The notes beneath the pieces are model-generated. The model made no database searches and was not told the origin of the DNA. It saw only the letters and a list, made by a program, of their open reading frames with translations. Below, in pieces: positions 17,886 through 26,199 of a DNA stretch of 64,000 nucleotides; position 1 is the stretch's first letter, and each line of letters starts with the position of its first letter. The DNA lies in NCBI RefSeq assembly GCF_026410925.1, contig NZ_CP112972.1, positions 2,542,001 to 2,606,000 of the forward strand, in the 5' to 3' direction. This DNA is from Halovenus salina (GTDB taxonomy: Archaea; Halobacteriota; Halobacteria; Halobacteriales; Haloarculaceae). The position numbers and the translations under genes were made by a program.

Positions 17886-19107
17886 ATGAACATGGCTTAC
17901 AACGAGGATACGTCGGGCACCCCGGCGGATCGAGTTCTTCCAGGGGACAACTAGTTCCCCCGACCAGAACGTACGAATTTTTGACACCACGCTGCGCGAC
18001 GGCGAGCAGACGCCACGGGCTTCGTTCTCGTACGACGACAAACGCGAGATAGCGGCGCAACTTGACGAGATGGGGACTCACGTCATCGAGGCAGGGTTCC
18101 CGGTCAACAGCGACGACGAGTTCGAGGCGGTCCGTGACATCGCCGCGGCAAGTTCGAGTACGGTCTGTGGGCTTGCGCGCGTCGTGGAAGCTGACATCGA
18201 AGCGGCCCTCGACAGCGGCGTCGACATGGTCCACGTGTTCGTGTCGACCAGCGACGTCCAGCTTGAGGATTCGATGCACGCAACAAGAACAGAAGCGAAA
18301 CAACGTGCTGTCGACGCAGTACGGCGAGTCGTCGAGGCCGGTGCCGAGTGTATGTTCTCGCCGATGGACGCCACCCGAACTGACGAGGCGTTCCTGTTCG
18401 AGGTGGTTGAGGCGGCCGCCGGGGCCGGCGCGGACTGGATAAACGTCCCGGACACCTGTGGCGTTGGCACTCCTGAGCGGTTCCAGGAGCTCGTGGCCGA
18501 GGTTGTCGAACACAGCGGCGACGCCCGAGTGGATGTACACACCCACGACGACTTTGGAATGGCAACGCCGAATGCCCTCGCGGGCGTTCGTGGCGGTGCG
18601 AACCAGGCCCAGGTCTCGGTCAACGGCATTGGCGAGCGGGCCGGCAACGCGGCCTACGAGGAGGTCGTCATGGGCCTCGAATCGCTGTACGACATCGACA
18701 CTGGTATCGACACCACGCAGATTGCTGCGCTGTCCCAGACCGTCGAACAGCGGTCGGCGGTACCGGTGCCGGGCAACAAGCCTGTTGTCGGTGACAACGC
18801 CTTCGCTCACGAGAGCGGCATCCACGCCGCGGGCGTCATCGAGAACAGCGAGACGTTCGAGCCCGGCGTGATGACCCCCGAGATGGTCGGCGCGGACCGG
18901 GAGTTTGTCCTCGGGAAACACACTGGGACCCACTCGGTACGCAAGCGACTCGAAGAGGTCGGCTTCGACCCCACAGATGAGGAGGTCCAGACGGTGACAC
19001 AACGAGTCAAAGAGAGCGGCGTTACCGCCGGTCACGTCACCGCTACCGACCTGACCGAGTTCGCCCGCGAAGCCGGTGTCGCCCGGCACGAGGAGGTCCA
19101 GGCCTGA
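17886..19107 (+). CDS. leuA: 2-isopropylmalate/citramalate synthase family protein with apparent N-terminal frameshift
   Basis: The HMGL-like TIM barrel is clear: [20 protein letters not shown], then [17 protein letters not shown] and [12 protein letters not shown]. The N-terminal motif is read in a frame that has no ATG, GTG or TTG after a TGA at 17887. The promoter-proximal ATG codons 17886 and 17892 are one frame off and stop at a TAG at 17952. Removing one C from the run at 17920-17923 would join them into [12 protein letters not shown], a family-like N-terminus, and give about 404 residues. The enzyme condenses acetyl-CoA with a 2-oxo acid. No C-terminal LeuA regulatory domain is present. 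A short version from ATG 18070 would lack the active-site motif. Confidence 0.85.
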
Positions 19108-19219
19108 GCAGATGTCCCGGCCGAGTGCTAGCGACAGCCGCCAACAGTGGCTGTCTGACCCGACCACGGATGCCCGCCACGACCAGCGGCGCAGCCAGTC
19201 GGGAAAGGCACCCCGAAAG

Positions 19220-19228
19220 AAATATATA
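19220..19228 (+). promoter_or_regulatory. TATA box of the ilv leader and ilvB operon
   Basis: AAATATATA ends 26 bases before ATG 19254, the usual spacing for a leaderless haloarchaeal transcript. This predicts that the operon message begins at the small leader reading frame rather than at ilvB, which starts 146 bases further down. Confidence 0.65.
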
Positions 19229-19253
19229 CGACGGCGAAACGAGAGTTGTAGTA

Positions 19254-19331
19254 ATGGAACAGCACGCTGGCACCCAGTCATTTGTCGTCGCCAGCGGCAT
19301 CGCATTCCTCGGCATTATTGTAGGGGCCTGA
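19254..19331 (+). CDS. Candidate branched-chain-rich leader peptide of the ilvB operon
   Basis: The 25-codon frame encodes MEQHAGTQSFVVASGIAFLG followed by IIVGA. Seven residues are Val, Ile or Leu, concentrated in the second half. The run ATT ATT GTA uses AT-ending codons that look uncommon in this GC-rich window. The stop TGA (19329-19331) falls in the loop of a 9-bp hairpin whose 5' arm begins inside the GTA codon. A leaderless promoter precedes it and ilvB follows 68 bases later. I infer a translation-dependent regulatory leader. It could alternatively be a small membrane peptide. Confidence 0.65.
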   Translation: MEQHAGTQSFVVASGIAFLGIIVGA

Positions 19332-19340
19332 GCCCCTACA
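19319..19340 (+). promoter_or_regulatory. Hairpin overlapping the leader stop codon, candidate attenuator
   Basis: TGTAGGGGC (19319-19327) pairs with GCCCCTACA (19332-19340) around a CTGA loop, a 9-bp stem with five consecutive G-C pairs. It is followed by the pyrimidine-rich CTCTCCTTTCC but no true T-run. A ribosome paused on the Ile-Ile-Val codons would cover the 5' arm. The structure could act by stopping transcription or by masking downstream sequence. Confidence 0.6.
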
Positions 19341-19399
19341 CTACACTCTCCTTTCCGACCCCGACTGCATCGCCACCGACTAGCAGCCAACGGACATCC

Positions 19400-21193
19400 A
19401 TGGACAGGACAGCACAGCAGCAACCACCGACACAGACAGCACAGCACGACGCCTCGGAGGGAGACGAATCTGCGGAGGCTCCCGATTCCAACGGCGTCGA
19501 AACAGGCGCGGACGCAGTGGCGAAGGCACTGGAAGCCGCCGGCGTTGAACACCTCTTTGGCGTCCAGGGCGGGGCGATAATGCCCGTCTACGACGCGCTG
19601 TACGACCACGATGACCTGGACCACATCACGATGGCCCACGAGCAGGGAGCGGCTCACGCCGCCGACGCCTACGGCATTGTCACCGGCGAGCCGGGTGTCT
19701 GCCTCGCCACCTCGGGGCCGGGCGCGACGAACCTCGTCACCGGGATCGCGGACGCGAGCATGGACTCGGACCCAGTGCTCGCACTGACAGGTCAGGTCCC
19801 GACGGATTTCGTCGGCAGCGACGCCTTCCAGGAGACGGATACAACCGGCGTCACACAGCCGATCACGAAACACAACAGCTTCGCCCAGGACCCAGATACA
19901 GTCGGCGACGCCGTGGGGACGGCGTGGGCGCTGGCAAACGACGGCCGCCAGGGGCCGACGCTCGTCGACCTTCCCAAGGATGTCTCGCTCGGCGAGACAG
20001 CGAGCGAACCAGACAGCCCGGAGACACCGGACACCTACAGTCCGCCAGCCGAGGCAGACGAGGTTGTCGTCGAAGCCGCCGCGGAGGCGTTCGAAGACGC
20101 ACAGCGGCCGGTAATTCTCGCTGGCGGCGGCGTTATCAAAGGCGAGGCCTGTGACCGACTCAGGAGTTTCGCCCGCGAGTACGAGGTCCCAGTTGTTACG
20201 ACGATGCCCGGACTGGGGTCGTTCCCCGAAGACGATCCGCTGTCGATGGAGATGGCCGGCATGCACGGCACCGGGTACGCGAACCTCGCGCTGGCAAACT
20301 GTGATTTCCTGCTGGGCGTCGGCACGCGGTTCGACGACCGGCTGACCGGCGGCGTCGAGACGTTCGCGCCAGATGCTGAGGTCGCACACGTCGACATCGA
20401 CCCCGCCGAGATGAGCAAAAACATCTTCGCGGACTACCCGCTAGTGGGCGACGCGACGCAGGTGCTCGACCAGTTCGACGACGCGGTCGAGGATGGCCCC
20501 GACCCGACGGCGTGGCACGAGACCTGCCAGGCGTGGGTCGAAACGTATCGGCTCGATTACGAGATGCCGGACGAGGACCCACTCAAGCCCGAGTACGTCG
20601 TCGAGACGGCCGACGCGGTGACGCCGGAGGATACAATCGTTACGACAGGCGTGGGCCAACACCAGATGTGGGCCTGCCTGTTCTGGGAGTACACCGAACC
20701 CCGGACCTGGGTGTCGAGTCACGGCCTGGGGACAATGGGGTACGGCCTGCCGGCTGCCATCGGTGCAAAAGTCGCCGCCCCAGACAAAGAGGTCGTCTGT
20801 TTCGAGGGCGACGGCTCTCTGTTGATGACGATCCAGTCACTGTCGGTGGCGGTTCGCGAGAACCTCGATATCACCGTCGTCGTCCTGAACAACGAGGCGA
20901 TCGGGATGGTCCGACAGTGGCAGGACGGCTTCTTCGAGGGCCGACACATGGCCTCGAAGTACGGCTGGGTCCCCGAGTTCGACACGCTCGCCGAGGCCTT
21001 CGGCGCTCGTGGGTTCTCGCTCGATGATGCCGACGATGCCGAGGCGACGCTCACAGCGGCCAGCGAGTACGACGGCCCGGCAGTCGTCGACGCCCACATC
21101 GACCCCGACGAGAACGTCTACCCGATGGTTCCAAGCGGGGGCGACAACGCCCGGTTTGCGCTGAACGAGACACAGCTGGAGGGGCTCCAATGA
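19400..21193 (+). CDS. ilvB: Acetolactate synthase large subunit
   Basis: The 597-residue protein starts at ATG 19400; the first 40 residues are a variable acidic extension. The catalytic Glu is in MAHEQGAAHAADAYG near residue 80, and the TPP/Mg motif runs from GDGSLLMTIQSLSVAV to VVVLNNEAIGMV near residues 470-500. The central FAD-binding domain is present, with GVGTRFDDRLTGG. It makes acetolactate or acetohydroxybutyrate from pyruvate with TPP and FAD. It overlaps ilvN by four bases and follows the candidate leader peptide, which may control it. Confidence 0.96.
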   Translation: MDRTAQQQPPTQTAQHDASEGDESAEAPDSNGVETGADAVAKALEAAGVEHLFGVQGGAIMPVYDALYDHDDLDHITMAHEQGAAHAADAYGIVTGEPGVCLATSGPGATNLVTGIADASMDSDPVLALTGQVPTDFVGSDAFQETDTTGVTQPITKHNSFAQDPDTVGDAVGTAWALANDGRQGPTLVDLPKDVSLGETASEPDSPETPDTYSPPAEADEVVVEAAAEAFEDAQRPVILAGGGVIKGEACDRLRSFAREYEVPVVTTMPGLGSFPEDDPLSMEMAGMHGTGYANLALANCDFLLGVGTRFDDRLTGGVETFAPDAEVAHVDIDPAEMSKNIFADYPLVGDATQVLDQFDDAVEDGPDPTAWHETCQAWVETYRLDYEMPDEDPLKPEYVVETADAVTPEDTIVTTGVGQHQMWACLFWEYTEPRTWVSSHGLGTMGYGLPAAIGAKVAAPDKEVVCFEGDGSLLMTIQSLSVAVRENLDITVVVLNNEAIGMVRQWQDGFFEGRHMASKYGWVPEFDTLAEAFGARGFSLDDADDAEATLTAASEYDGPAVVDAHIDPDENVYPMVPSGGDNARFALNETQLEGLQ

Positions 21194-21846
21194 GCCGCGG
21201 TGAGTTGCCCGGCGAGCCACCGGAGACCCGCCAGACACCAGACGGCGAGCGAACCGACCAGGGCATCGCCGTCGAGAATGCCGACCGGCAGACAGACACG
21301 ACCCAGCGGGCCGTGCTGTCGGCGCTGGTCAAACACGAACCTGGCGTCCTCGCCGAGGTGTCAGGATTGTTCAGCCGCCGCCAGTACAACATCGAGTCCC
21401 TGACTGTCGGAGAGACGATCGACGACCGACTCGCCAGGATGACCATCGTCGTCGAGGAGAGTCGCCCGAACATCGACCAGGTCAAAAAACAGCTCGAAAA
21501 GCGGATTCCGGTCATCTCGGTGCGCGAACTCGAAGACGCTGTCCAGCGTGAGCTGGTCATCGTCAAAGTCGACGGCGACAGCCCCGATCAGGTCAACGCA
21601 ATCACCGAGATGTACGACGGCCAGACGCTTGACGCCGGACCACGCTCGATCACGGTCGAAATCACGGGCGACGAACAGCGTATCGACGCAGCAATCGACG
21701 CCTACCGCCAGTTCGGCATCCGGGAGCTCACCCGCACCGGCTACGCCGCCCTGGCGCGTGGCGAGGAACCCACAGCACAGGTCACGGAACCGAACCAGGC
21801 GCCAACAGAAGCCCAGGTCAAAACGGAGACAATCGCAGATGACTGA
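21190..21846 (+). CDS. ilvN: Acetolactate synthase small regulatory subunit
   Basis: The 218-residue protein has an ACT domain at about residues 38-112 ([20 protein letters not shown], then YNIESLTVG) and the ALS small-subunit C-terminal domain to residue 190. It binds the large subunit, raises its activity and confers valine feedback inhibition in known systems. A Gly/Pro/Thr-rich N-terminal extension of 35 residues and a Gln/Thr-rich tail are extra compared with bacterial IlvH. It starts inside the ilvB stop (ATGA) and overlaps ilvC by eight bases. Confidence 0.95.
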
Positions 21847-22843
21847 AATATACACCGACAGCGACACAGAGCGCGCACAGCTTTCGAACAAGACGGTTGC
21901 AGTACTCGGCTACGGCAGCCAGGGCCACGCCCACGCACAGAATCTCGACGACAGCGGCATCGACGTGGTCGTCGGCCTGCGACCCGGCTCGCGGTCCCGC
22001 GAACACGCACAGGACGATGGGCTCCGCGTAGCAACGCCCAGCGAGGCAGCCGCCGAGGCCGACATCGTTGTCATGCTAATCCCCGACACGGTACAGCCGT
22101 CGGTCTACGAGACGATTGCCTCCGAACTCGACCCCGGCGACACGCTCCAGTTCGCTCACGGGTTCAACATCCACTACGGCCAGATTGAGCCACCCGAGGA
22201 TGTCGACGTGACGATGGTCGCGCCGAAGGGCCCTGGCCATCTGGTCCGGCGGACCTACGAGCGCGGCGAAGGCACGCCCGGTCTGTTCGCGGTCTATCAA
22301 GACGCGACCGGCGAGGCGAGTTCCGAAGCACTCGCATACGCAGGCGCAATCGGCTGTACCCGTGCCGGCGTCATCGAGACGACCTTCCGCGAGGAGACAG
22401 AGACGGACCTCTTCGGGGAGCAGGCGGTGCTCTGTGGCGGCGTCACCGACCTCATCAAGGCAGGGTACGAGACGCTCGTCGACGCCGGCTACTCTTCGGA
22501 GATGGCCTACTTTGAGTGCCTGAACGAGCTGAAGCTCATCGTCGACCTGCTGTACGAGGGAGGCCACACCGAGATGTGGAACTCAGTCTCGGACACCGCA
22601 GAGTACGGCGGCCTGACCCGGGGCGAGGACGTTGTTGACAGAGAGGCGATGGAGGCGATTCTCGACGGCGTCCAGTCCGGCGAGTTCGCCCGCGAGTGGA
22701 TCGCCGAGAACCAGGCCAGCAGACCGGCCTACAGACAGCACAGACGTGCCGAACAGAACCACGAGATAGAGGAGGTCGGCGACCGCCTGCGCGAGTTGTT
22801 CGCCTGGAGCGAACAGGCAGAGCCGGCACCGGCTGACGACTGA
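21839..22843 (+). CDS. ilvC: Ketol-acid reductoisomerase, class I
   Basis: This 334-residue enzyme has the NADPH-binding [13 protein letters not shown] near residue 25, the phosphate-contact loop [12 protein letters not shown], and the class I C-terminal knotted domain (residues about 185-330) with ETFREET-like [15 protein letters not shown] and SDTAEYGG. It isomerises and reduces acetolactate and acetohydroxybutyrate. It starts within the end of ilvN, so translational coupling is likely. A length below 350 confirms the short class I form. Confidence 0.96.
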
Positions 22844-22875: not shown

Positions 22876-23157
22876 ATGACAGACACTAACGACACCACCG
22901 AGAGCGACACAGCGCAGAAACCGACCCGAGACGACGGCCAGCCGATGAAGATGCGAGAGATGGACCACGCCCCACCGGTCGAGGGGACACGCCGGGTCTT
23001 CGAGCGAGCAAACGAGGGGAAGACAGCCCGTCCAGACGGCGGCACGGAGACAACTGAAGACGACGAGTTCAACCAAAAGATGAAAGAGATGGACCACACA
23101 CCGCCGGTCGACGGTCCAAACCGGACCTTCGAGCGCGGCGCAGACGTAGACAAATGA
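22876..23157 (+). CDS. Small protein with an internal repeat inside the ilv-leu operon
   Basis: The 93-residue hydrophilic protein contains a duplicated 20-residue unit at residues 26-45 and 69-88. The shared pattern is M-R/K-E-M-D-H-A/T-P-P-V-E/D-G, then R..FER. The rest is Thr, Asp and Glu-rich and probably disordered. It lies between ilvC and leuC, 32 bases after the former and overlapping the latter by ATGA, so it is certainly cotranscribed. I do not know the family. The position suggests a role with the branched-chain enzymes, for example as an adaptor, but this is inference. Confidence 0.75.
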   Translation: MTDTNDTTESDTAQKPTRDDGQPMKMREMDHAPPVEGTRRVFERANEGKTARPDGGTETTEDDEFNQKMKEMDHTPPVDGPNRTFERGADVDK

Positions 23158-24599
23158 GCGAGGGGACGCTGTACGACAAGGTCTGGGACGCCCACCGGGT
23201 GACGACTCTTCCCAACGGACAAGACCAGCTGTTTGTCGGACTCCATCTCATCCACGAGGTGACGAGCCCGCAGGCGTTCTCGATGCTCGACGAGCGCGAG
23301 ATGGAGGTCGCCCGGCCGGAGCTGACACTCGGCACCGTCGACCACATCGTTCCGACTGACGACCGGACCCGTCCCTACGAGGACGAGGCGGCCGAGGAGA
23401 TGATGCAGTCTCTGGAGCGAAACGCCGCCGACGCCGATATCGAACTGCTGGACCCGACGACGGGTGACCAGGGTATCGTCCACGTCGTCGGACCCGAACA
23501 GGGGCTCACCCAGCCTGGCAAGACCATCGTCTGTGGCGACTCGCACACCGCGACACACGGTGCCTTCGGCGCGCTCGCCTTTGGTATCGGTACCTCCCAG
23601 ATTCGGGACGTGCTCGCGACCGGGACCGTGGCGATGGAAAAAAAGGCCGTCCGGAAAATCGAGGTGACGGGGGAACTCGGCGAGGCTGTCACCGCGAAAG
23701 ACGTTATCCTGGAGATTATCCGCCGGCTCGGCACCGACGGCGGTGTCGGCTACGTCTACGAGTATGCCGGCGAGGCAATCGAGGCGTTGGACATGGCCGG
23801 CCGGATGAGCCTCTGTAACATGTCAATCGAGGGTGGCGCTCGGGCGGGCTACGTCAACCCCGACGAGACGACCTACGAGTGGCTCGAATCGACCGATTAC
23901 TTCGCGGAGAATCACGCCGAGTTCGAGGAGCTCCGTCCCTACTGGGAGTCGATTCGGAGCGACGACGACGCCGACTACGACGACGTGGTCACGGTCGACG
24001 GGACGGCTCTGGAGCCGGTGGTGACCTGGGGGACGACCCCCGAGCAGGGTGTCGGTATCACCGAACCGGTTCCGGAGCCGTCGACGCTGCCCGCGGACAA
24101 ACGACAGCGGGCGCGGGACGCACAGGAACACATGAGCGTCGAGCCAGGCGAGACGATGGAAGGGTATCCTGTTGACGTGGCCTTCCTGGGGTCGTGTACC
24201 AACGCCCGACTCCCCGACCTCCGGCGTGGGGCTCGCGTCCTCGACGGCCGAACGGTTCACGAGGACGTGCGCGCGCTCGTAGTGCCCGGGAGCCAGCGCG
24301 TCAGCGCCGCCGCCGAAGCCGAGGGACTCCGCGAGACGTTCACCGAGGCTGGCTTCGAGTGGCGCGAACCCGGTTGCTCGATGTGTCTCGCGATGAACGA
24401 CGACCAGCTGGTCGGCGACGAGGTTTGTGCCTCCTCGTCGAACCGGAACTTCGTTGGCCGACAGGGGAGTTCGACTGGCCGAACCGTCCTGATGAACCCC
24501 TCGATGGTCGCCGCGGCCGCGGTCACGGGCGAGGTGACCGACGTGCGCGACCTGCCGCCGACGGGAACGCCGGGTTCACAGCCGGGGGTGTCGGTATGA
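23154..24599 (+). CDS. leuC: 3-isopropylmalate dehydratase large subunit
   Basis: The 481-residue aconitase-family protein carries [18 protein letters not shown] near residue 120 (first cluster Cys), [13 protein letters not shown] near residue 343 and [14 protein letters not shown] near residue 403 (second and third Cys). With LeuD it isomerises 2-isopropylmalate to 3-isopropylmalate. It starts in an ATGA overlap with the small repeat protein and overlaps leuD by four bases. Confidence 0.96.
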
Positions 24600-25219
24600 G
24601 CGAGGGCGTCTCGGTGCCGTCGGTGAGCACCGTCTCGGGGGCCGCTGTCCCGATACGGGGGAACGATATCGACACCGACCAGATCATTCCGGCCCGGTTC
24701 CTGAAGGTCGTCACATTCGAGGGGTTGGGCCAGTTCGCCTTCTTCGATCAGCGCTACGACGAGAACGACGAGCCGACCGACCACCCGATGAATCAGTCCC
24801 GTCACGAGGACGCGACGGTGCTTGTGGTCAACGCCAACTTCGGCTGTGGCTCCTCGCGGGAACACGCGCCACAGGCGCTGATGCGCTGGGGTATCGACGC
24901 TATCGTCGGCGAGAGCTTCGCGGAAATCTTCGCAGGGAACTGCCTCTCGCTAGGGATTCCGACCGTGACGGCCAGTTCAGACGAAATCGAAGCACTGCAG
25001 GACTGGGTCGATGCGAATCCAGACGGCGAGGTGACAGTCGACGTGGAGGGCGAAACGGTGACCTACGGGTCGACGACCGTCGAGGCCGGCGTCGACGAGG
25101 GCCAGCGGACGGCACTGGTCGACGGGATCTGGGATACGACCGCACTCATGCGCTCGAACGAGGCGGCAATCGAGGCGACTGCCGCAGAGTTACCCTACGT
25201 CGACGGAGGTCAGTCGTGA
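24596..25219 (+). CDS. leuD: 3-isopropylmalate dehydratase small subunit
   Basis: The 207-residue protein has the swivel-domain motifs [16 protein letters not shown] near residue 22 and [15 protein letters not shown] near residue 80. It forms the LeuCD enzyme of leucine synthesis. The start ATG 24596 overlaps the leuC stop, and its own stop overlaps the GTG of leuB. Its length near 200 residues and the long helical C-terminus are typical of the bacterial-type subunit rather than the shorter archaeal homoaconitase type. Confidence 0.95.
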
Positions 25220-26199
25220 CCCACGAGGTCGCGGTGGTCCCCGGAGACGGTATCGGCCGAGAGGTCGTCCCCGCTGCTGTCGACGTGTTGGCGACAGTCG
25301 ACGCGCCGATAGAGTTCGTTCACGCCGAGGCTGGCGACGAGACGAAAGCCGAACAGGGCGTCGCGTTGCCCGAGGAGACCCGCGAGACTGTCGCCGACGC
25401 GGACGCGACGCTCTTTGGCGCGGCCGGCGAGACCGCAGCCGACGTGATACTGCCGCTTCGCTCGGTTGTCGGCTCGTATGCGAACGTCCGTCCGGTGTGT
25501 GCCTACCCTGGCACGGACGCCCGCGCGCCCGAAACGGATCTAGTCTTCGTCCGCGAGAACACGGAGGGTGTCTACTCGGGTATCGAGAGCGAACTTACGG
25601 ACGGGGTACGAACCTTGACTCGCGTCGTGACCGCAGCGGCATCCAAGGCCATCGCCGACTTCGGCTTCGAGTACGCCGATACCAACGGCTACGAGCAGGT
25701 CACGGTCGCCCACAAGGCAAACGTGATGCGCGAGACCGACGGCCTCTTCCTCGATATCGTCGAGGATGTCGCCGAGCAACGCGGAGCCGCCTACGACACC
25801 GCACTCATGGACGCACTGGCGATGGAACTGGTCATGCAGCCAGAGGCCTACGGCGTGGTCATCTGCCCGAACCTCGCCGGTGACGTCCTCTCGGACCTGG
25901 CGGCTGGGCTCGTCGGCGGCCTTGGACTGCTCCCCTCGGCCAACATCGGCGACGAGAACGCCCTCTTCGAGCCAGTCCACGGGACCGCACCCACCATCGC
26001 CGGCGACGGCGTCGCCAACCCCGCGGCGACAATCCTCTCGGCTGCCCTCCTCCTCGAACATATCGGCTACGAGAGTGACGCCCAGCGGGTCCGTGAGGCT
26101 GTCGAGGGTGTCCTCGCCGAGGGGCCGCGGACACCGGACCTCGGCGGCACTGCCTCGACTGCCATGGTCCGGGATGCAGTCGTCGACCGCCTTTCCTGA
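25216..26199 (+). CDS. leuB: 3-isopropylmalate dehydrogenase
   Basis: The 327-residue protein starts with GTG 25216, overlapping leuD. Family motifs are [12 protein letters not shown] at the N-terminus, the substrate-binding [12 protein letters not shown] near residue 115, HKANVM near residue 165, and the metal-binding [14 protein letters not shown] near residue 222. It oxidises and decarboxylates 3-isopropylmalate with NAD. It is the last gene of the operon. Isocitrate or tartrate dehydrogenase relatives are less likely given the context. Confidence 0.94.

Follow-up and report, generated by a model that had tools for sequence, protein, structure and literature searches.

Upstream of ilvB in Halovenus salina, which encodes the large subunit of acetolactate synthase, lies a compact element made of a promoter, a short upstream open reading frame (uORF1) and a hairpin that spans the end of that frame. 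From its conservation we consider it probable that this element is a leaderless leader peptide, on which ribosomes would measure charged valine tRNA (Val-tRNA), with isoleucine tRNA (Ile-tRNA) beside it, and so set the expression of ilvB and the genes downstream. The window analysed here is a stretch of 64,000 nucleotides (nt) of contig NZ_CP112972.1, positions 2,542,001 to 2,606,000, and all coordinates count from its first letter. The parts of the element and the gene behind it are:

19223..19228, forward strand: TATA-like box TATATA of the ilvB leader promoter, beginning 31 nt before the uORF1 ATG
19254..19331, forward strand: leader peptide frame uORF1, MEQHAGTQSFVVASGIAFLGIIVGA followed by a stop, 25 codons, with ATG at 19254 and TGA at 19329-19331
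19314..19322, forward strand: control codons ATT ATT GTA (Ile Ile Val), with GTA at 19320-19322
19319..19340, forward strand: hairpin of 9 base pairs with the uORF1 stop in its loop, stem TGTAGGGGC/GCCCCTACA at 19319-19327/19332-19340
19341..19357, forward strand: C/U-rich, G-poor tract past the hairpin, a putative release region, drawn from G-poor columns in relatives
19366..19372, forward strand: conserved box, consensus CGNAYCG (here TGCATCG), drawn from column conservation in 119 leaders
19400..21193, forward strand: ilvB, acetolactate synthase large subunit (TIGR00118, 673.6 bits)

The comparison drew on an order-wide search that gave an ilvB match at E <= 1e-120 in 278 of 286 sampled Halobacteriales genomes. 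Upstream regions were taken from 191 loci, namely 140 ilvB matches picked for spread from the listed matches, 50 loci on named contigs, and the window; four of them are second ilvB copies (L155, L175, L197 and L200), leaving 187 main-ilvB regions. Leader and hairpin are present in 181 of the 187. Once identical regions were collapsed, 168 distinct leaders remained, and these are the base of all leader counts below unless stated otherwise. The leader search was anchored on GTA through the motif GTAGGGG, and four of the 181 leaders (L084, L100, L136 and L219) were found by eye after this motif had missed them. A first-pass annotation of the window, which had read the region as an ilv attenuator of the bacterial kind, had proposed conservation in relatives as a check, and frame and stem are indeed kept across the order. 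It is this conservation, and not the single window sequence, that excludes chance. The element is found in named, cultured genera, among them Natrialba, Halococcus and Halobacterium, and the closest named relatives by ilvB are Halovenus aranensis (90% identity) and H. rubra (83%).

The spacing between promoter and frame is the first conserved property. Because TATATA begins 31 nt before the ATG in the window, transcription is predicted to start at the uORF1 ATG or a few bases upstream of it, and as far as sequence tells there is no indication of a start downstream of 19254. In relatives a TATA-like hexamer begins 29-33 nt before the leader ATG in 143/168, so the leader is probably leaderless. 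A frame-blind test gave the same picture: the first ATG 24-43 nt past the best TATA shares the frame of the GTA in 137 of 141 leaders, with 27 of the 168 having no such ATG. Start codons are ATG in 165 leaders and GTG in 3, and leader length is mostly 22-33 codons. This conservation of frame and start speaks for translation of uORF1. The 25-codon frame from a promoter-spaced ATG thus lies where the first-pass annotation had placed it, and its count of 7 Val, Ile and Leu residues in 25 is right (3 Val, 3 Ile, 1 Leu); this richness is not the conserved feature, however, because the N-terminal part of the relatives' leaders is not Ile-rich (Ile just 1.6%).

What is conserved lies at the end of the frame. 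GTA stands in 168/168 leaders, as is to be expected in part from a GTA-anchored search, and makes up 1.0% of Val codons in the ilvB genes of the 50 named matches, which served as the codon-usage reference. The codon before it is Ile in 160/168 (ATT 124, ATC 36), and the ATT found there in 124 leaders accounts for 8.0% of Ile codons in the reference, where other shares are 10% of Gly for GGT and 8% of Arg for CGT. The supposed rarity of the Ile and Val codons is borne out by these figures. GTA is followed by GGG in 165 leaders and then by Ala or Val in 166, which gives a near-terminal motif Ile-Val(GTA)-Gly-Ala/Val. In 159 leaders the stop follows as codon three or four after GTA, and in none later than codon eight. 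Where the first-pass annotation had spoken of Ile and Val codons together, the relatives single out Val(GTA) as constant, preceded by Ile in most leaders.

The hairpin of the window has the coordinates and the 9 pairs first described, and its loop, CTGA at 19328-19331, contains the TGA stop. It is present in the predicted fold, and the whole 181-nt segment is mildly stabler than shuffles (z -1.91). GTA was said to open the 5′ arm; it does lie in the stem, with one additional T-A pair preceding it. Among relatives, 167 of the 168 leaders have a stem of at least 5 pairs. The stop sits within the loop in 65 leaders and runs into the beginning of the 3′ arm in a further 93, 158 in all. When the 3′ side is shuffled, 5.7% of stems score at least as high as the observed median. 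Covariation is limited, because the GGGG/CCCC core is nearly invariant. The inner pair beside this core varies (C-G 114, T-A 12, T-G 10), and a few leaders change more, each preserving the stem through changes in both arms: L219 carries GGGC/GCCC, L136 has GGTGC/GCGCC, and L084 and L100 keep GTA with the stem moved three bases (GGGCC/GGCCC). The T of GTA is paired in just 91/168 best stems, which suggests that pairing is not the only reason for keeping GTA.

Second ilvB copies provide the strongest single indication that it is the codon that is being read. We read five of their leaders, and in four of them Ile replaces Val while the stem is kept (GGGGC/GCCCC or GGGG/CCCC). These four end in ..GIIGIIGIIGAPQ (G259), ..ASIIAIIAIIGVS (G067), ..SIIGASY (G060) and ..LAIIGAPQ (G215), and two second-copy leaders have six Ile within eight residues. 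The exchange alters the codon and leaves the stem, and amounts to a natural experiment on the sensed residue; we read the leaders with Ile in place of Val as sensing charged Ile-tRNA. The second copies with Ile instead of Val in the leader are L234-L236 and L155, and in L234 a strong GC-rich hairpin was seen by eye between leader and ilvB.

The leader is nested within a longer frame that the first-pass annotation had overlooked, so that its account of the region was incomplete:

19112..19399, forward strand: linker frame, beginning 7 nt past the first base of the leuA stop and fused in frame to ilvB here

In the window this linker crosses the promoter, uORF1 and the hairpin in a frame other than that of uORF1. 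Across relatives the -1 frame is open over the leader in 166/168, against a mean of 108 and a maximum of 130 in codon-order shuffles; the +1 frame is open in 66, against 99 expected from shuffles. The first stop of the -1 frame overlaps an open ATG or GTG at ilvB, or lies directly beside it, in 148/168, and in five more the frame runs into ilvB. The frame of ilvB relative to the leader is identical in 135/168, across 67 distinct distances, and in 37 named unique loci the frames split 33/2/2 from leader to ilvB and 20/11/6 from leuA to leader. The rule used recognised leuA upstream of 153 leaders and not of the 15 others. In 144 of the 153 a start codon of the linker lies between -1 and +8 relative to the leuA stop, and in 141 the linker reaches ilvB (ending within 11 nt of the ATG or GTG, or fused); its length as measured is 67-182 codons (median 113), fused ones being cut at the region end. 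We infer that leuA, linker and ilvB form a stop-start relay and that leader and promoter are nested within the linker, the leader in a different frame. The linker part before the internal ATG shows weak conservation at the protein level, with 112/119/142 substitutions at codon positions 1/2/3 (55 pairs). A separate gene, uORF2, was considered and dropped: it coincides with the 3′ portion of the linker frame, and its substitutions (80/73/70 in 33 pairs) have no codon-position bias. The stretch from hairpin to internal ATG is open in the -1 frame in 116/119 leaders and in the other frames in 100 and 97, which by itself tells little.

These parts suggest the following course of events. With ample Val-tRNA, the ribosome would clear GTA, terminate in the loop and depart, and the hairpin would then close behind it and, with the C/U tract, make it likelier that RNA polymerase or the transcript is released early. 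When Val-tRNA is scarce, the ribosome would be held at GTA with the 5′ arm covered, the stem would stay open, and transcription would proceed into ilvBNC-leuCDB. Ribosomes coming from leuA through the linker would also hold the hairpin open, whatever the valine supply, so the leuA-ilvB read-through transcript should be exempt. Release of transcription is favoured as the output because the hairpin lies ~55 nt from the next ATG, and transcription termination is the output that we infer. Counted from the inner end of the 3′ arm, G makes up 1-8% of the columns at 6-19 nt, and T rises to as much as 43-46% at 16-18 nt. Intergenic termination sites reported for Haloferax volcanii are marked by a stretch of T and a TC dinucleotide, and a hairpin lies within 10 nt upstream of 503 of 1,543 termination sites there (PMC7237163); by these site features, hairpin and pyrimidine tract make a plausible, not a strong, terminator. 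Further downstream, three columns of the CGNAYCG box are 93-95% conserved and two 74-86% (119 leaders). The strict pattern occurs ~50 nt past GTA in 105/168, in variable codon phase, and no pairing partner was found for it; a similar box was noticed by eye in some second-copy leaders.

The same sensor could act on translation instead, with the hairpin gating a start at the ATG usually found 77-92 nt past GTA and a stop-start passage leading from there to ilvB. We regard such an output as possible, though doubtful. An ATG-initiated frame past the hairpin has its stop at the ilvB start in 119/168 (101 of these in the -1 frame), and most hairpins have no T-run behind them, both of which fit a translational gate; against it, ~55 nt separate the hairpin from that ATG, the 119 leaders folded show no conserved pairing that extends to the ATG, and 17 of 127 coupled leaders have no in-frame internal ATG. 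A different use of the frame would be nascent-peptide arrest, in which the Ile-Val-Gly-Ala/Val end stalls the ribosome on a free metabolite rather than on uncharged tRNA. While the nearly invariant V-G-[AV] residues would suit such a peptide, it has no need of the constant wobble bases of GTA and GGG, the second copies swap Val for Ile and in two of them multiply it, and the stop comes 3-8 codons from GTA. Arrest of this kind appears quite unlikely.

It is also unlikely that the hairpin is a regulator binding site or a processing signal with uORF1 as a by-product. Conservation of GTAGGGG and of the CGNAYCG box beyond pairing could be understood in this way, but the uORF1 frame, its start, stop position and codon choice are all conserved as well, and the Ile swap alters codons with the stem kept. 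The openness of the -1 frame and the position of its stop at ilvB, described above, would finally be compatible with a ribosome that shifts -1 at TATTGTAGGGG and so reaches ilvB. Besides viral and suggested cases, one -1 frameshift has been reported in archaea according to the part of PMC8211752 available to us. Here a shift is unneeded: in 144 of 153 leaders the frame has its own start codon beside the leuA stop, which accounts for its openness, no slippery heptamer was seen, and in the second-copy leaders G259 and G067 the -1 frame, inspected by eye, is closed upstream of ilvB. We have set this idea back as very unlikely.

Several observations weigh against a tRNA-sensing leader peptide and have to be set beside the evidence for it. 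Most leaders carry just one to three control codons, and the invariance of GTA, whose main count comes from the anchored search, could reflect a constraint at the RNA level. Substitutions in uORF1 are spread evenly over codon positions (176/192/184 in 68 pairs), so the peptide before its end is not visibly under protein-level selection. The fifth second-copy leader, that of G291 (L175), ends in SPVFVGAA, with Phe-Val. Six main-ilvB regions lack the element (L117, L151-L154 and L159), that of L159 being cut by the contig end, and the 168 leaders share common descent. A run of at least 4 T within +18 to +55 of GTA occurs in only 21/168, in keeping with the missing T-run noted in the window at the outset, and RNAalifold on 119 of the 168 leaders (aligned from 15 nt upstream of GTA to 12 nt beyond the next ATG, and so including only the end of uORF1) gave the GGG/CCC helix only. 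An alternative antiterminator hairpin was dropped on that result. Since 147 leaders lack a T-run and the 119 yielded no rival fold, the output step departs from the textbook scheme. Apart from this, we observed in L151-L154, from two families, neither leader nor promoter, with ilvB close behind leuA, which is perhaps the older arrangement.

On balance, comparison lends good support to the proposal that a ribosome waiting for Ile- or Val-tRNA occupies the stem, namely through the conservation, the leaderless start, the rare GTA at the stem base, the stop position and the Ile swap. The part of the first-pass annotation that followed classical ilv attenuation fared less well, since competing hairpins find no support and a T-run is mostly missing; having looked for both, we do not file the element as a classical attenuator. 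A leader peptide with codons for an end-product amino acid stands at a hairpin, and the element would work like a leader-peptide attenuator; the core, a Val/Ile signal read by the ribosome, appears right, with transcription termination as its putative output.

A second leader lies further upstream, before leuA:

17886..17954, forward strand: promoter-spaced leader frame before leuA, with GTT CTT at 17934-17939
17971..19107, forward strand: leuA core (family match), in the +1 frame relative to its leader frame, with no ATG, GTG or TTG in its frame after the leader ATG

In 42 of 45 unique loci (the named set and the window), the ATG chosen by TATA score lies in the GTT CTT frame and LeuA is +1 to it. 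The rule picked another ATG in the three exceptions, L024, L031 and L037, and in L031 one in the LeuA frame. A second set, the best 30 of 54 matches, which includes the own genome and overlaps the named set in some species, has LeuA +1 to the GTT CTT frame in 30/30. An ATG, GTG or TTG in the LeuA frame past the leader ATG is found in 7/45 loci and in 2 of the best 30 of 54, and a stop in the LeuA frame between the leader ATG and the GTT CTT site in 8/45. The leuA leader carries a conserved GTT CTT C..GGG site, observed in L022-L071 and L364-L393, and a leucine-dependent +1 shift is likely. For HVO_1510, slippage or a CTG start, together with leucine dependence, has already been proposed (PMC8305020, as far as that text was available to us); what is added here is a widely conserved site with the Leu codon CTT at the frame change.

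Upstream of pheS, 19 of 30 haloarchaeal loci have a promoter-spaced frame with at least 3 Phe among the last 14 residues; of 29 trpC loci taken as control, 1 has such a frame. These frames mostly end in a GFGFFF-like sequence and stand some 620-920 nt ahead of the family match, which serves as reference for the position of PheS. The other 11 loci fall below the Phe threshold, L336 being close to it. The pheS loci examined are L334-L363, that of the own genome being L348. Trp leaders before trpC were also considered and rejected, as they occur in 5/29 loci, no more than in the control (6/30).

Outside the order, ilvB upstream regions of 51 phylum-mates were sampled (11 + 20 + 20 loci). In one family, f21, perhaps Methanosarcinaceae (a guess of ours), all 18 sampled genomes have a short Ile/Val/Leu-rich frame just before ilvB, with at least 6 of these residues in the last 12, for example MNTALRNKINELFLRVVILAVIIVVLL; base shuffles reach 6 in 106/1800. 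The loci are L287, L291, L293, L296, L298, L300, L301 and L314-L324, and behind some of these leaders a hairpin and then a T-run were noticed by eye. No such leader was seen by eye before ilvB in the 33 phylum-mates of other families, where the best frames resemble tails of the upstream leuA-like gene and one (L311) has 6 Ile/Val/Leu.

We tentatively group these cases as a haloarchaeal family of leaderless leaders that would sense tRNA charging: Val(GTA) at ilvB, Ile at second ilvB copies, Phe at pheS, and Leu(CTT) with a +1 shift at leuA, with leuA and ilvB in series and the principle old in the phylum. If so, leucine shortage would drive ribosomes through leuA and the linker and open the ilvB hairpin, and valine shortage would open it on transcripts that start at the leader promoter. 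On this view, control by leader peptides would be an old trait of this archaeal phylum, common also to a related family, perhaps Methanosarcinaceae. The presence of the element in cultured genera makes the start codon, the control codon and the stem directly testable. Another question that follows is how archaeal RNA polymerase would come off a leader that lacks a T-run.

The genes behind ilvB complete the locus:

21190..21846, forward strand: ilvN, small subunit (TIGR00119)
21839..22843, forward strand: ilvC, ketol-acid reductoisomerase, with approximate start (NF004017)
23154..26199, forward strand: leuC, leuD and leuB (family matches TIGR00170, TIGR00171 and TIGR02088)

Family matches thus confirm the ilvB-ilvN-ilvC-leuCDB operon, with leuA upstream; ilvD, also a family match, lies on the opposite strand of the window. 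An Rfam scan gave nothing above the gathering score, a SECIS_2 hit at 19170-19211 reaching only 18.4 of 70 bits and lying outside the element. In the own genome, 72 places match the element with at most one mismatch, against 109 in the reversed control, and of three exact matches one is the ilvB leader and the other two (L072 and L074) are non-leaders.

Short upstream frames have been described in haloarchaea. In H. volcanii, 16 occur in 5′ untranslated regions of 150-250 nt, including those of pheS (26 amino acids) and Trp-tRNA ligase (23 amino acids); as far as the text was available to us, Table 2 of that work holds no ilvB entry and amino-acid sensing is not proposed, in which it differs from our proposal (PMC4983044). 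HVO_1510 (leuA2) resembles the leuA of the window, on the assumption that the two are orthologous, in having an ATG out of frame with LeuA; in that account ilvB has 0 occurrences in the main text, and the ilvB leader, unlike leuA, needs no shift (PMC8305020). The word 'attenuation' is absent from the part available to us of a review of archaeal transcription-translation coupling (PMC8116511). In the accessible part of a study of valine in a methanogen, attenuation is said to affect the IlvBCD operon, and the attenuation reference cited is to Corynebacterium (PMC13158618). We found no archaeal ilvB leader or amino-acid attenuator in the literature searched, and our claim to novelty is limited to that.

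In bacteria, the sensing of amino acids by a translating ribosome is textbook knowledge, and enterobacterial ilvGMEDA and ilvBN are controlled by ribosome-mediated transcription attenuation. The same is reported of ilvBNC in Corynebacterium in the parts of two papers available to us (PMC11857589; PMC10272879). Like these bacterial attenuators, the haloarchaeal element has a short leader frame with codons for the regulated amino acids and a hairpin over its end, upstream of ilvB. It differs in being leaderless, in commonly having one rare Val codon, in its single hairpin, mostly with no T-run, in its archaeal promoter and polymerase, and in being nested in a linker from leuA. A similar comparison can be made at pheS, as pheST of Escherichia coli is under leader-peptide control through pheM. 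The frames upstream of haloarchaeal pheS are likewise Phe-rich, with GFGFFF-like sequences, and differ from pheM in being archaeal and in their promoter-spaced start.

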